The notes beneath the pieces were generated by a model. That model saw only the letters and a list, made by a program, of their open reading frames with translations, made no database searches and was not told where the DNA came from. From contig NZ_JACHIH010000032.1 in the NCBI RefSeq assembly GCF_014203125.1, forward strand, positions 1-64,000: a stretch of 64,000 nucleotides of DNA, written 5' to 3'. Origin of the DNA: Rhodopseudomonas rhenobacensis (GTDB taxonomy: Bacteria; Pseudomonadota; Alphaproteobacteria; Rhizobiales; Xanthobacteraceae). Of the stretch, positions 468 to 45,651 are shown piece by piece. Each line of letters begins with the position of its first letter. Positions within the stretch are counted from its first letter, which is position 1. A program made the translations under genes and the position numbers.

Positions 468-899
468 TTACTTCGTCGGTGCCGCGCAGCCGGGCGACCA
501 TTGGGCGATCGGCTCTTCCAGCGGCTCGGTGCGATCCTCGAGCGGAAACTCGGCCTTGACCCGGTCGATCTCGCGCAGCGCGGCGGAGCCCGCCACCGCG
601 GTCAGGCTGATCTCGTCGAACAGCAGCGCCATCTCGGCGAACACGCTGCGGTCGCTTTCGTTCTCGTTGACGTGGTCGAGCTCCGACAACATGGTGACAA
701 TCGCCGCGATCCGCTCGCGCTGACCACGTACCCGCTGCAGCAGCCGCTTCGACAGCCGCCGCGCTTCCATGCTGAGAAAGCGGTCGAACGCCGAGGACAA
801 CATTTCCCGGCAATGGCCGTCCATGTTGGTGCCCTGGATGACGATCCGCATCCGCTCGACCAGTTCGAGCGCGTCGCCGTCGGCGCTTGGGTCGGCCAT
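468..899 (-). CDS. Conserved-looking hypothetical protein downstream of ubiV
   Basis: This 143-residue soluble, mostly helical, charged protein has no signal peptide or membrane segment, and I do not recognise its family. GAGGGGG just upstream of the ATG is a strong ribosome binding site. It sits 64 bases after ubiV on the same strand, so it is probably co-transcribed with ubiT-ubiU-ubiV. Only three cysteines or fewer are scattered in it and no metal motif is visible. A link to quinone synthesis is an inference from position alone. Confidence 0.75.
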   Translation of the reverse strand: MADPSADGDALELVERMRIVIQGTNMDGHCREMLSSAFDRFLSMEARRLSKRLLQRVRGQRERIAAIVTMLSELDHVNENESDRSVFAEMALLFDEISLTAVAGSAALREIDRVKAEFPLEDRTEPLEEPIAQWSPGCAAPTK

Positions 900-963: not shown

Positions 964-1884
964 TCAGAGTGCCCTGGCGGTCCGTTGAGCCTCGGCGACG
1001 TTGTTGATGAACGTCGAGCCGGGCTTGGCGTAGAGAAAACCGTTGGCGACCGGGATCGGATAGATCGCAGTCAGCGCCGCGGCGCCCTCGGCGACGCTGC
1101 GCTTGCCGTCGATCACGTCGCGATACACCTTGGCGACTTCGACCATGTCGCATTGCTGCGGCGACAGCCGCAGCGAGCGCACCCCGGCTTCGGTCAGATC
1201 GTCGATCTCGCCGAGCACGCTGGTGCAGGCATAGGACAGCGTCTGCACGCCGTTCATCGCCAGGAACGGCTCGTTGTCGAGCGTGAACACCGCGAGCCCG
1301 TCGGGATCCTGCTCGCAGACGAACTTGCAGTTATCCTTCGACAGCTTGTTGAGCCGCGCATGATAGCAGCGCGCCGAGATCGCCAGCGGCGCGCGGCCGA
1401 AGCCGAACACCTCGAAGGTGACGTCGGGCAACGCCGCGGCGATGGTGCGGATCGCGGTCAGCGGCAATTCCGGCGGCAGACAAATACGCTTGGCGCCGTG
1501 CGAGGCGAAATATTTCGCGGTGGCCTCGTTGTAGATGTTGACGAACGGGCCGATGGCATGCGGCCGGTCGCCCAGCATCCCCAGGCAGGACAGGTCGTTG
1601 ACCTCCATGGTCAATTCGGGTGCTGCGGCCAATTCAGCCATCGCGTTGCGCTCGCGGGTCAGCGACATCAGCGTCAGCGACCCCATCACCACGTCCTTGC
1701 CGCAGGACGACAGCCGCTCGACCACCGCCGGAATGTGCTCGGCGATGAACGGCGAGCGCTTCGAGCAGACGATCTCGCCGACCACCACGGTGTCGATCGG
1801 GGCTTCCTCGGCGATGCGGAAGTAGAAGTCGCGCCACGCCTCGGGCTTCCAGTTGTAAAGCACCGGTCCAAGTGTGAGCTTCAT
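964..1884 (-). CDS. ubiV: UbiV, U32-family O2-independent ubiquinone hydroxylation protein
   Basis: UbiV forms a heterodimer with UbiU that hydroxylates ubiquinone precursors without oxygen, using iron-sulfur clusters. The 306-residue protein starts MKLTLGPVLYNW, the usual UbiV beginning, so I chose the internal ATG at 1884 over the in-frame start at 1920. Four cysteines fit the 4Fe-4S set of the family: C40, then C173, C186 and C190 with C-X12-C-X3-C spacing. It follows ubiU after about 110 bases on the same strand. Family knowledge: U32 peptidase fold repurposed for anaerobic hydroxylation. The residue numbering is counted from the translation. Confidence 0.9.
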   Translation of the reverse strand: MKLTLGPVLYNWKPEAWRDFYFRIAEEAPIDTVVVGEIVCSKRSPFIAEHIPAVVERLSSCGKDVVMGSLTLMSLTRERNAMAELAAAPELTMEVNDLSCLGMLGDRPHAIGPFVNIYNEATAKYFASHGAKRICLPPELPLTAIRTIAAALPDVTFEVFGFGRAPLAISARCYHARLNKLSKDNCKFVCEQDPDGLAVFTLDNEPFLAMNGVQTLSYACTSVLGEIDDLTEAGVRSLRLSPQQCDMVEVAKVYRDVIDGKRSVAEGAAALTAIYPIPVANGFLYAKPGSTFINNVAEAQRTARAL

Positions 1885-1997: not shown

Positions 1998-2975
1998 TTA
2001 TCGCCAGGTCTTCTTGTAGGCGCCGACCGTGGTCGACTGGCCCTCGCTGAGCCCGCGCAACGCATCGCTCGGCACCGGCAGCCCCTGGTCGAGCGCGGAC
2101 AGCGCCTGACGGAAGGTGCGCACCACCCGCTCGATATAGGCGCGGCCGCGCTGGCGTCCCTCGATCTTCAGCGCCGACACCCCGGCCTTCTTCAGCTCGG
2201 GAAGCATCGTGGTGGCGTCGAGGCTGGAAGGATCCTCGAACAGATAGCCGGCGCCCTCGGAGGTCTGGTAGCGGCCCTTGCACAGCGTCGGATAGGCCGC
2301 GGCCTCGCCATTGGCGAATTTGTTGATGGTGAACTCGCCGAGCCGCGACACCAGCATGCCGTTCTCTTCGCGATACTGGATGTGGCTGGCCGGCGAACAC
2401 ACGCCGTCCATGTTCGGCGACTTGCCGGTGGCATAGGACGACAGCGAGCAGCGGCCCTCTTCCATCACGCACAGCCCGCCGAAGATGAACACTTCGGTCT
2501 CGCACTTCACGGCTTTGGCGATCGCGGCGATCTCCGGCACGCTGAGCACCCGCGGCAGCACCACGCGCTTGGCGTTGAAGCGGTCGACATAAAACTGGAT
2601 GGCGTCCGGATTGGCGGCGGCGGCCTGCACCGAGACGTGCAACCGCTGCTGCGGATGGGCGCGCGCCACATATTCCATCACGCCGACATCGGCGACGATC
2701 AGGGCGTCGGCCTTGGCGTCGACGGCGTCGTCGACCGCGCGCTGCCACAATTCGAAGCCGCCGGCGCGCGCGAAGGTGTTGATCGCGACCAGCACCAACG
2801 CGCCCTCGTCATGGGCATGCGCAATCGATTCGGCCATTTCGGCGCGGCTGAAATTCAGCCCCGGGAAATTTCGCGCATTGGTTTCGTCGCTGAAGCCGCA
2901 ATAGATCGCGTCGGCGCCCGCCGCCACCGCATCACGCAAAGCCGACGGAGTGCCCGCCGGACAGATCAATTCCAT
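1998..2975 (-). CDS. ubiU: UbiU, U32-family O2-independent ubiquinone hydroxylation protein
   Basis: The 325-residue partner of UbiV begins MELICPAGTPSAL, a typical U32 N-terminus. The cysteines C169, C176, C193 and C232 fall at the positions described for the 4Fe-4S ligands of Escherichia coli UbiU. GGAGG about 7 bases before the ATG supports the start. Only three bases separate it from the ubiT stop, so the two are translationally close-coupled. The set ubiT-ubiU-ubiV is diagnostic for the anaerobic ubiquinone pathway. Expression is probably driven from the divergent ubiT/ubiD region, which carries a FixK/FNR-like site. Confidence 0.93.
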   Translation of the reverse strand: MELICPAGTPSALRDAVAAGADAIYCGFSDETNARNFPGLNFSRAEMAESIAHAHDEGALVLVAINTFARAGGFELWQRAVDDAVDAKADALIVADVGVMEYVARAHPQQRLHVSVQAAAANPDAIQFYVDRFNAKRVVLPRVLSVPEIAAIAKAVKCETEVFIFGGLCVMEEGRCSLSSYATGKSPNMDGVCSPASHIQYREENGMLVSRLGEFTINKFANGEAAAYPTLCKGRYQTSEGAGYLFEDPSSLDATTMLPELKKAGVSALKIEGRQRGRAYIERVVRTFRQALSALDQGLPVPSDALRGLSEGQSTTVGAYKKTWR

Positions 2976-2978
2976 GGA

Positions 2979-3521
2979 TTATCCTCCGCCACCGGCGCCC
3001 ATCTCGTGGCGGAGCGACGAAGAGCCGACGATGCTCCGCAAGAGCCGTTCGATCGGCGCTGCGAGCGGCCCGAGCCAGACCACCGATTCAGAGAGAAAAT
3101 CGACGCGCGAATCGTCGATCGCATTACGCAGCGCGACCACCGCCTCCATGTCGCCGTCGACATGGATGTCACGCGAGAAAAACAAAGCGTCGCCGTCATA
3201 GGAGCCGTCGGTCATGCCGATCAGCGCCGACAGCGGCCCGGCGATCCGGGCATCGAGATTGGACGGCAGCGTCCGCACCGCGGTGATCCGCGGATTCATC
3301 CGCCGCGGCTCCAGCACGAAGGCAATCGGCAGGTCGGTGGGCTCGAGCCCATACCGCTTGCTGGTGTGCGAACCGAGACGATCGAAAATGCGGGGATGCC
3401 GTGAACGGATTTCGCCGAGGCAGATATTCAGCAACACCTGCAATGGCAGCAACGGCAGGACGCGCGCCGCCAGCGCAAGCGGCACTGGCATCCTAGTGAC
3501 GGAGGAATTGGATACCGACAT
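2979..3521 (-). CDS. ubiT: UbiT, SCP2-domain lipid-binding accessory factor
   Basis: This 180-residue protein matches the SCP2 sterol-carrier family. UbiT binds isoprenoid quinone intermediates and is needed for oxygen-independent ubiquinone synthesis, as the counterpart of aerobic UbiJ. Hydrophobic N-terminal third (LPLLPLQVLLNICL) is followed by the SCP2 core with DALFFSRDIHVDGDMEAVVALRN. The ATG at 3521 is preceded by AAAGGTGG. A much longer reading frame in the same phase extends upstream through ubiD on the other strand and is not real. First gene of the ubiT-ubiU-ubiV transcription unit. Confidence 0.9.
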   Translation of the reverse strand: MSVSNSSVTRMPVPLALAARVLPLLPLQVLLNICLGEIRSRHPRIFDRLGSHTSKRYGLEPTDLPIAFVLEPRRMNPRITAVRTLPSNLDARIAGPLSALIGMTDGSYDGDALFFSRDIHVDGDMEAVVALRNAIDDSRVDFLSESVVWLGPLAAPIERLLRSIVGSSSLRHEMGAGGGG

Positions 3522-3569
3522 GGGCCACCTTTGAAAGACCTCGTTACCATCGCCGGGGAAGGAAGTTCT

Positions 3570-3583
3570 TTGCGCAGGATCAA
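3570..3583. promoter_or_regulatory. FixK/FNR-type box in the ubiT-ubiD divergent promoter
   Basis: The sequence TTGCGCAGGATCAA fits the rhizobial FixK consensus TTG(A/C)-N6-(T/G)CAA and sits in a wider CTTTG/CAAAG palindrome. Its centre is about 56 bases from both the ubiT ATG (3521) and the ubiD ATG (3633), so one dimer could serve both promoters. The match is to a consensus known from FixK/FNR/Crp regulators; binding is inferred. Confidence 0.65.
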
Positions 3584-3632
3584 AGACACCACTTGGTCTG
3601 CATGCTGACCAGAGCTGTCCCACGGAGACCAC

Positions 3633-5159
3633 ATGCTGAACCGCGTTAAACCGCCCTTCCCGGACTTGCGCGCGTTCATGGCGTATCTTGAGTCCCGCGG
3701 TCAATTGGTCAGAATCCGCAGACCAGTGTCTGTGGTGCACGACCTCACCGAAATCCACCGCCGCGTGCTGGCCGACAACGGCCCGGCGCTGTTGATCGAA
3801 AACCCCATCAAGGCCGACGGCACGCCGTCCGAAATGCCGATCCTGGTCAATCTGTTCGGCACCGTCGAGCGGGTCGCCTGCGGCTTCGGCATCACTCCCG
3901 ATAAATTGGGCGATCTCGGCGAGACGCTGGCCGAAATGCGCGCCCCGGTGCCGCCGCAGAGCCTGTCCGACGCCTTGAGCAAATTGCCGATGGCCCGCGC
4001 CGCCTTGGCGATGCGGCCGAAGACCGCGAAATCCGCATCGGTGCAAAGCGTGGTCTGGAGCGGCGCCGATGTCGACCTCGGCCGCCTCCCGGTGCAGATC
4101 CCGTGGTCCGGCGAGCCGGCGCCCTTGATCACCTGGGGTCTGGTGTTCACCAAGCCGCCGGAGCACTCTGGCGGCGCCGACAATGTCGGAGTCTACCGGA
4201 TGCAGGTGCTCGGCCGCGACCGCCTGATCATGCGCTGGCTGGCGCATCGCGGCGGCGCCAAGCATCACCACCAATGGCAGAAGCAGGGCCGCGACATGCC
4301 GGTGGCGATCGTGATCGGCGCCGATCCGGCGATGATTCTGTCAGCGGTGCTGCCGCTGCCGGAAGACCTGTCCGAAATCAAATTCTCCGGGCTGTTGCGC
4401 GGCGAGCGCCCGGTGCTGGCGCCGTGCGTCAGCGTCCCGCTGCAAGTGCCGGCGGATGCCGAGATCGTCATCGAGGGCTTCGTTTCGGCCACCGAGACCG
4501 CGCCCGAGGGGCCTTACGGCGACCACACCGGCTATTACAATTCGGTCGAGCAGTTTCCGGTGCTGACCGTCACGGCGATCACCACGCGCAAGGATCCGAT
4601 TTATCTGTCGACCTACACCGGGCGGCCGCCGGACGAGCCGTCGCGGCTCGGCGAAGCGTTCAACGACATCTTCCTGCCGGTGGCGAAGCGGCAGTTTCCG
4701 GAAATCGTCGACCTCTGGCTGCCGCCGGAGGCCTGCTCGTACCGGATCGCGGTGGCGTCGATCAAGAAACGCTATCCCGGCCAGGCGCGGCGGCTGATGA
4801 TGGGGCTGTGGTCGATGCTGCCGCAGTTCAGCTACACCAAGCTCCTGATCATCGTCGACGAGGACATCGACGTTCGCGACTGGGCCGACGTGATGTGGGC
4901 GGTGTCGACGCGCTGCGACACCTCGCGCGACATGGTGTCGATCACCGACACCCCGATCGATTATCTGGATTTCGCCTCGCCAAAGTCTGGCCTCGGCGGC
5001 AAGCTCGGCATCGACGCCACCAACAAGATCGGCGCCGAGACGCAGCGCGAATGGGGCGAGGTGCTGACGATGGATCCCGCGGTGGTGCAGCGGGTCGACG
5101 CGATGTGGTCGTCGCTCGGGCTCGGCCCGGCGCTGCCGCAGCGGAAGATGATACGATGA
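3633..5159 (+). CDS. ubiD: UbiD-family prenylated-FMN decarboxylase
   Basis: The 508-residue enzyme decarboxylates 4-hydroxy-3-polyprenylbenzoate in ubiquinone synthesis, using the prenyl-FMN made by UbiX. The family motif EGPYGDHTGYY appears at about residues 292-302, and a conserved FNDIFLPVAKRQFPEI segment follows. Length is normal for UbiD. The ATG at 3633 is preceded by GGAG. Its stop overlaps the ubiX start as ATGA, indicating translational coupling. It is transcribed divergently from ubiT, which places the decarboxylase next to the anaerobic hydroxylation genes. Another UbiD-clan substrate cannot be excluded, but the context favours ubiquinone. Confidence 0.92.
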   Translation: MLNRVKPPFPDLRAFMAYLESRGQLVRIRRPVSVVHDLTEIHRRVLADNGPALLIENPIKADGTPSEMPILVNLFGTVERVACGFGITPDKLGDLGETLAEMRAPVPPQSLSDALSKLPMARAALAMRPKTAKSASVQSVVWSGADVDLGRLPVQIPWSGEPAPLITWGLVFTKPPEHSGGADNVGVYRMQVLGRDRLIMRWLAHRGGAKHHHQWQKQGRDMPVAIVIGADPAMILSAVLPLPEDLSEIKFSGLLRGERPVLAPCVSVPLQVPADAEIVIEGFVSATETAPEGPYGDHTGYYNSVEQFPVLTVTAITTRKDPIYLSTYTGRPPDEPSRLGEAFNDIFLPVAKRQFPEIVDLWLPPEACSYRIAVASIKKRYPGQARRLMMGLWSMLPQFSYTKLLIIVDEDIDVRDWADVMWAVSTRCDTSRDMVSITDTPIDYLDFASPKSGLGGKLGIDATNKIGAETQREWGEVLTMDPAVVQRVDAMWSSLGLGPALPQRKMIR

Positions 5160-5752
5160 GCATCCCGCGCGTCATCGTCGGCATCAGCGGCGCCTCGGGC
5201 GCCGCGGTCGGCATCCGCATCGTCGAGCTGTTGGCTTCGACCGGCGCCTGCGAAATTCACCTCGTCGCCACCAGGGCGGCGGAGCGCACCATCGCCTATG
5301 AAGTCGGCGACCGCGCGCTGGCACGCGCCGCAGACCTGGTCGATCGCCACCACGACATCGACGACATCGGCGCCTCGATCGCCTCGGGCTCGTTCCGCAC
5401 CAGTGGGATGATCGTGGCGCCGTGCTCGATCGGCTCGCTGTCGGCGATCGCCACCGGCAATCTCGACACGCTGCTGACGCGGGCCGCCGACGTGCAATTG
5501 AAAGAGCGCCGCAAGCTGATCCTGATGGTGCGCGAGAGCCCGCTGCATCTCGGGCATCTGCGTTCGATGGCGGCCGTCACCGAATATGGCGCGATCGTCG
5601 CCCCGTTGGCGCCGGCGTTCTACCAGCGGCCGCAATCCATCAGCGAGATGATCGACCACATGGCGCTGCGCGCCATCGGCCTCTTGGGCATCGACGACCT
5701 CAGCGCCGCGCCGCCGGAATGGAGCGACGACACCCCGCCGACCTGCCCTTAA
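5156..5752 (+). CDS. ubiX: UbiX flavin prenyltransferase
   Basis: This 198-residue flavoprotein makes the prenylated FMN cofactor required by UbiD. The N-terminal GISGASGAAVGIRI nucleotide-binding loop and the C-terminal PAFYQRPQSISEMIDHM segment are typical of the UbiX/PAD1 family. It starts inside the last codons of ubiD (ATGA overlap). An internal segment RRKLILMVRESPLHLGHL matches the usual prenyl/phosphate-binding region. The gene ends just before an intergenic palindromic repeat, so the unit is probably only ubiD-ubiX. Confidence 0.93.
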   Translation: MSIPRVIVGISGASGAAVGIRIVELLASTGACEIHLVATRAAERTIAYEVGDRALARAADLVDRHHDIDDIGASIASGSFRTSGMIVAPCSIGSLSAIATGNLDTLLTRAADVQLKERRKLILMVRESPLHLGHLRSMAAVTEYGAIVAPLAPAFYQRPQSISEMIDHMALRAIGLLGIDDLSAAPPEWSDDTPPTCP

Positions 5753-45637: not shown

Positions 45638-45651
45638 TTGACCCATATCAA
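45638..45651 (-). promoter_or_regulatory. FixK/FNR-type box upstream of hemA
   Basis: TTGACCCATATCAA fits TTGA-N6-TCAA exactly, the consensus recognised by rhizobial FixK and FNR-type regulators. It lies 141 bases before the hemA ATG and 39 bases after the stop of the upstream hydrolase gene, so it belongs to hemA. Confidence 0.75.

Follow-up and report, generated by a model that had tools for sequence, protein, structure and literature searches.

A conserved FNR/FixK-type box between divergent ubiTUV and ubiDX in Rhodopseudomonas rhenobacensis probably serves two back-to-back promoters

Can one regulatory site control two divergent sets of ubiquinone genes? In the R. rhenobacensis window (the whole stretch of DNA that was analysed, 64,000 nucleotides), ubiT, ubiU and ubiV are contiguous, and each product scored above its family cut-off, making up the O2-independent ubiquinone module (ubiTUV). 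Transcribed away from them are ubiD and ubiX (ubiDX), in which the start of ubiX overlaps the stop of ubiD by 4 bp. A single FNR/FixK-type box lies between the two units. The features are:

964 to 1884, minus strand: ubiV, NCBIfam NF047965 at 358 bits (cut-off 275)
1998 to 2975, minus strand: ubiU, NCBIfam NF047963 at 500 bits (cut-off 440)
2979 to 3521, minus strand: ubiT, SCP2-domain accessory factor, NCBIfam NF047962 at 61.8 bits (cut-off 46.9)
3525 to 3530: Shine-Dalgarno-like AGGTGG of ubiT
3570 to 3583, no strand: FNR/FixK-type box TTGCGCAGGATCAA, half-sites TTG...CAA
3624 to 3627: Shine-Dalgarno-like GGAG of ubiD
3633 to 5159, plus strand: ubiD, 4-hydroxy-3-polyprenylbenzoate decarboxylase type, TIGR00148 at 476 bits (cut-off 245)
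5156 to 5752, plus strand: ubiX, flavin prenyltransferase type, Pfam Flavoprotein PF02441 at 129 bits

Against the PRK10922 model, UbiD of the window scored 616 bits, under the cut-off of 788. Just downstream of ubiV is an open reading frame of 143 amino acids (468-899, minus strand) that had no Pfam or NCBIfam match; it has relatives in only 3 of 17 named loci (70% identity in L053, 52% in L062/L063).

The box is real and sits almost exactly midway between the two units. It lies inside the 111-bp intergenic gap (3522-3632), and its edges are 48 bp from the ubiT ATG (3521, minus strand) and 49 bp from the ubiD ATG (3633, plus strand). The sequence-only reading had placed it at these positions, about 56 bases from both start codons, a distance that is right for the centre of the box (55.5 bp for ubiT and 56.5 bp for ubiD). 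The box has the form of an FNR/FixK-type site, a 14-bp TTG-N8-CAA palindrome, and in Rhodopseudomonas the half-sites are extended to tCTTTG-N8-CAAAGa. We also take it to fit the FixK2-type consensus TTG(A/C)-N6-(T/G)CAA.

The pattern alone is not significant. There were five oriented matches to TTGN7TCAA in the window compared to 3.6 expected from shuffling, and the genome (5.18 Mb) had 283 and 276 oriented matches, approximately one per 10 kb, which gives a chance of about 1% for a match in a 111-bp gap. A second canonical FixK/FNR box (TTGACCCATATCAA, 45638-45651) is found elsewhere in the window, approximately 117 bp upstream of an open reading frame (45521, minus strand) that by eye resembles 5-aminolevulinate synthase (hemA). 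In R. sphaeroides, FnrL is known to target hemA.

The significance of the box comes from its conservation. We searched for UbiT in 392 genomes of the host's family and the named genome collection, and gathered the DNA upstream of ubiT irrespective of the presence of a box, yielding 61 distinct divergent ubiT-ubiD gaps of 200 bp or less. TTG-N8-CAA was present in all 61. The same half-sites were not found at spacings of N4-N7 or N9-N11, and were found in five gaps at N12. In shuffled gaps, TTG-N8-CAA occurred in a mean of 2.28 and a maximum of 7 of 61. The sequence-only reading had staked its proposal in advance on the box being kept by relatives with the divergent gene order, and it was.

The gap sequences fell into approximately 30 clusters (70% identity), and the cores of the boxes varied between clusters (GCGCAGGA, GAGCCGGA, TTCGAGAA, TCCTATAT and others), indicating that the half-sites are retained while the remainder drifts. 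Among 18 sequences of the Rhodopseudomonas group, 86% of the columns in the box were invariant, in contrast to 11% in the flank on the ubiT side and 26% on the ubiD side. Named carriers of the box include R. faecalis, R. palustris, R. pseudopalustris, R. infernalis, Chelatococcus and Blastochloris. We conclude that the box is probably functional.

The box is tied more closely to ubiT than to ubiD. In 22 of 30 clusters, ubiD was spaced 45-52 nt from the box. However, in some relatives (L012, L041-L044, L047-L050 and L065) the box was 44-51 bp from ubiT and ubiD was 61-582 bp away, and in two others (L015 and L020) the box persisted near ubiT with no ubiD. Genus g26 (L012, L041-L043 and L094) has an extra small gene for an XRE-type helix-turn-helix protein separating the box from ubiD and oriented like ubiD, with the box still 48-51 bp from ubiT (gene content was read in L012 and L043).

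Sequences resembling -10 elements are found at similar distances on both sides of the box. We aligned the sequences on the box and scored each offset against 2000 shuffles. The predicted promoter features in the window are:

approximately 3535, minus strand: predicted start site of ubiTUV
3541 to 3546, minus strand: predicted ubiT -10 element TAACGA, 23 nt from the box edge
3603 to 3611, plus strand: predicted extended ubiD -10 element TGcTGACCA, with the hexamer 22 nt from the box edge
approximately 3618, plus strand: predicted start site of ubiDX

On the ubiT side, 15 of 30 clusters had a TA dinucleotide 22 nt from the box edge, and 24 of 30 had one at 21-23 nt, compared to approximately one cluster expected per offset, and the mean -10 score was reached by none of the 2000 shuffles. 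On the ubiD side, the offset of 22 scored best of all (reached by at most 1 of 2000 shuffles), and all but one base of TGcTGACCA was invariant in the 18 Rhodopseudomonas-group sequences. The hexamers there are weak (TGACCA in Rhodopseudomonas), only 4 of 30 clusters have TA where it is expected, and the signal was weaker without the Bradyrhizobium-like clusters (p = 0.047 over all offsets).

In the class II position, the centre of a regulator's site is at about -41.5. Because the -10-like elements are approximately 22 nt from both edges of the box, its centre would be at about -41.5 for both promoters; on the ubiT side, where the predicted -10 element sets the position, this is the class II geometry. 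Start sites far from the box had been named as an observation that would count against the proposal, and those predicted here are close by on both sides.

Two proteins encoded in the genome are candidates for the regulator. One (L071, C51) is FNR/AadR-like, with an N-terminal cysteine cluster of the Fe-S type and an E..SR recognition helix. The other (L069, C41) is FixK-like, without the cysteine cluster and with an E..SR motif on inspection. These names are approximate because both proteins scored under the NCBIfam FnrL and FixK cut-offs (L069 had 229 bits with the Caulobacter FixK model; cut-off 300). Neither ubiT nor ubiD appears in the R. palustris FixK target lists of one FixK study. In R. 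palustris TIE-1, expression of AadR depends on FixK (PMC3050613), and therefore both regulators could act at the box. R. palustris FixK acts at pioABC from a box at -44.5 (PMC3050613).

We propose, with a probability of roughly 0.85, that one FNR-type dimer at the box, located between two back-to-back class II promoters, co-induces ubiTUV and ubiDX at low O2, and that ubiDX is probably dedicated to the anaerobic route. The box would be the sole site of the dimer (FNR/AadR-like, FixK-like, or both), with its centre approximately 41-43 bp upstream of each predicted start site. When O2 drops, the bound dimer would recruit RNA polymerase to either side, and ubiTUV (O2-independent hydroxylation) and ubiDX (the decarboxylase and the enzyme for its cofactor) would then increase jointly. 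With the promoters 83 bp apart, two polymerases would probably compete for the one dimer, one promoter being served at a time. Binding, activation and O2 dependence at this box are expected by analogy with R. sphaeroides. The sequence-only reading had likewise suggested that one dimer could switch both units, and it is supported by chromatin immunoprecipitation (ChIP) and expression data from R. sphaeroides (PMC2908626, PMC4263372).

It is unlikely that the box serves only ubiTUV, with ubiDX expressed constitutively from a separate promoter and the equal distances a consequence of the compact intergenic region. The constant distance to ubiT where ubiD is farther away fits this alternative, as does the stronger -10 signal on the ubiT side. 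In addition, FnrL binds at ubiD in R. capsulatus with no change seen in ubiD mRNA (PMC4634722). However, a -10-like element recurs at the class II spacing towards ubiD as well, albeit with weak hexamers, and the narrow range of ubiD spacing in 22 of 30 clusters argues for a link to ubiD. FnrL has a peak at ubiD in both Rhodobacter species (PMC4634722). Furthermore, FnrL and CrpK were each scored as activating both R. sphaeroides units, and gain and loss of ubiD track ubiT in the host's family.

We give equally little weight to the possibility that the regulator is another member of the Crp/Fnr family, for example an NO sensor of the Dnr/NnrR type, rather than the FNR/AadR-like or FixK-like protein. 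Approximately 15 proteins with a Crp-type helix-turn-helix (HTH) scored over the cut-off in the genome, and the half-site arrangement TTGCG..ATCAA differs from the perfect TTGAT..ATCAA. A comparative study had placed RSP0466 and RSP0465 in the DNR regulon, although R. sphaeroides is without DNR (PMC2908626). On the other hand, the sites of FNR, FixK and DNR overlap with one another, and on inspection the E..SR motif was lacking in most of the remaining HTH proteins. The identical 14-mer, TTGCGCAGGATCAA, is the site bound by FnrL at hemN of R. sphaeroides (PMC2908626). Lastly, we rejected a functionless chance match, which the genomic frequency of the pattern and the lack of excess in the window might suggest, based on conservation in 61 of 61 gaps over some 30 diverged clusters with differing cores and flanks.

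The sequence-only reading had called the decarboxylase shared, which is unlikely in the host's family. We defined a close UbiD as one with E <= 1e-100 and compared 120 family genomes, 34 with UbiT and 86 without. A close UbiD was found in 27 of the 34 genomes with UbiT and in none of the 86 genomes without it (Fisher p = 1e-20, uncorrected for shared ancestry). R. capsulatus uses UbiN in place of UbiD under aerobic conditions, and its ubiD-X deletion mutant grows aerobically and fails to grow anaerobically; ubiD is expressed aerobically there (PMC10626278). Based on the co-occurrence in the family and the R. capsulatus data, it is more likely that ubiDX is reserved for the anaerobic route than that both routes share it, and the box most likely switches the complete O2-independent module. 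This is a statement about the family only: dedication across the class was rejected because 137 of 344 genomes without UbiT carry UbiD.

Our searches do not name the aerobic ring decarboxylase of the family. There was no UbiD-domain gene in 42 of the 120 family genomes, and Coq4 (PF05019), with no match in any of the 120, was rejected for this role. The other UbiD-family genes of the host (C16 and C28) are unlikely to encode the ubiquinone enzyme, with scores of 161 and 172 bits against the ubiquinone decarboxylase model compared to 616 for the window copy; C16 (L088, G000:C16) is part of another ubiX-ubiD-like pair, located away from this locus, that is of non-ubiquinone type by model scores. 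A search for a UbiN homologue among FAD monooxygenases gave L134 as a tentative candidate, which is salicylate-hydroxylase-like (159 bits, under the cut-off of 446 for the salicylate 1-monooxygenase model). Three genomes (G003, G020 and G070; loci L015 and L020) have UbiT and gave no UbiD-domain gene in the PF01977 search, indicating that anaerobic decarboxylation is done there by something else or that the genomes are incomplete. In its fullest form, our proposal is that in the host's family ubiDX is dedicated, one FNR/FixK dimer drives the entire O2-independent set through two competing class II promoters, and aerobic decarboxylation is done by a different O2-dependent enzyme (UbiN-like or other). 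We consider the odds of this fuller version to be about even.

The arrangement would provide a sequence-level rule for the induction of O2-free ubiquinone synthesis in purple bacteria and their relatives: one box, two promoters, and approximately 22 nt to each -10 element. It further suggests that the decarboxylase belongs to the anaerobic module, and thereby makes the aerobic ring decarboxylase of the family a directly testable question.

The closest known system is that of R. sphaeroides, in which we take RSP0464 to be ubiV and RSP0468 to be ubiX. The mechanism is not new, as the same arrangement has been shown there experimentally. FnrL binds in vivo to one site (TTGATGTAGGTCAA) flanked by RSP0466-0464 on one side and RSP0467-0468 (ubiD) on the other, and both units were scored as activated; the annotations of RSP0466 (lipid carrier) and RSP0465 (peptidase U32) correspond to UbiT and UbiU (PMC2908626). 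CrpK, a cysteine-less relative, also binds there and activates both units (PMC4263372). In both organisms, a single FNR-type site separates ubiT/ubiU-type genes from a divergent ubiD, and both encode an FNR-like protein of the Fe-S type and a cysteine-less paralogue, which in R. sphaeroides both bind in vivo. The host differs in belonging to another alphaproteobacterial order, in its box (TTGCGCAGGATCAA versus TTGATGTAGGTCAA), in having a FixK-like paralogue rather than CrpK, and in that its arrangement is known from sequence alone.

Other systems share parts of this arrangement. Escherichia coli also has Fnr-type control of anaerobic ubiquinone genes, with ubiT and ubiUV activated from class II-like sites that precede the start sites by 33-36 nt; however, it has two Fnr sites, one per promoter, its divergent pair is ubiT/ubiUV, and ubiD is elsewhere (PMC10470549). 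In R. palustris TIE-1, from the closest studied genus, pioABC is likewise anaerobically induced with a FixK box near -41 to -45, but has two boxes and a single operon with no divergence (PMC3050613). Hyphomicrobium denitrificans shares the adjacency of ubiX, ubiD and ubiTUV: ubiXDTUV are co-regulated with anaerobic metabolism, and another enzyme is thought to do the aerobic decarboxylation, although regulation there was studied through sulfur-responsive repressors (PMC12423496). A survey of Pseudomonadota found FNR-type sites upstream of ubiT/ubiU in 87% of triplets, a conserved box before O2-independent pathway genes as seen here, and in its text neither ubiD, ubiX nor a divergent ubiDX unit comes up (PMC11707229). 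Because the R. sphaeroides FnrL/CrpK site precedes it and FNR boxes are general in Pseudomonadota, we regard the box in R. rhenobacensis as a well-conserved instance of an arrangement that was already known.
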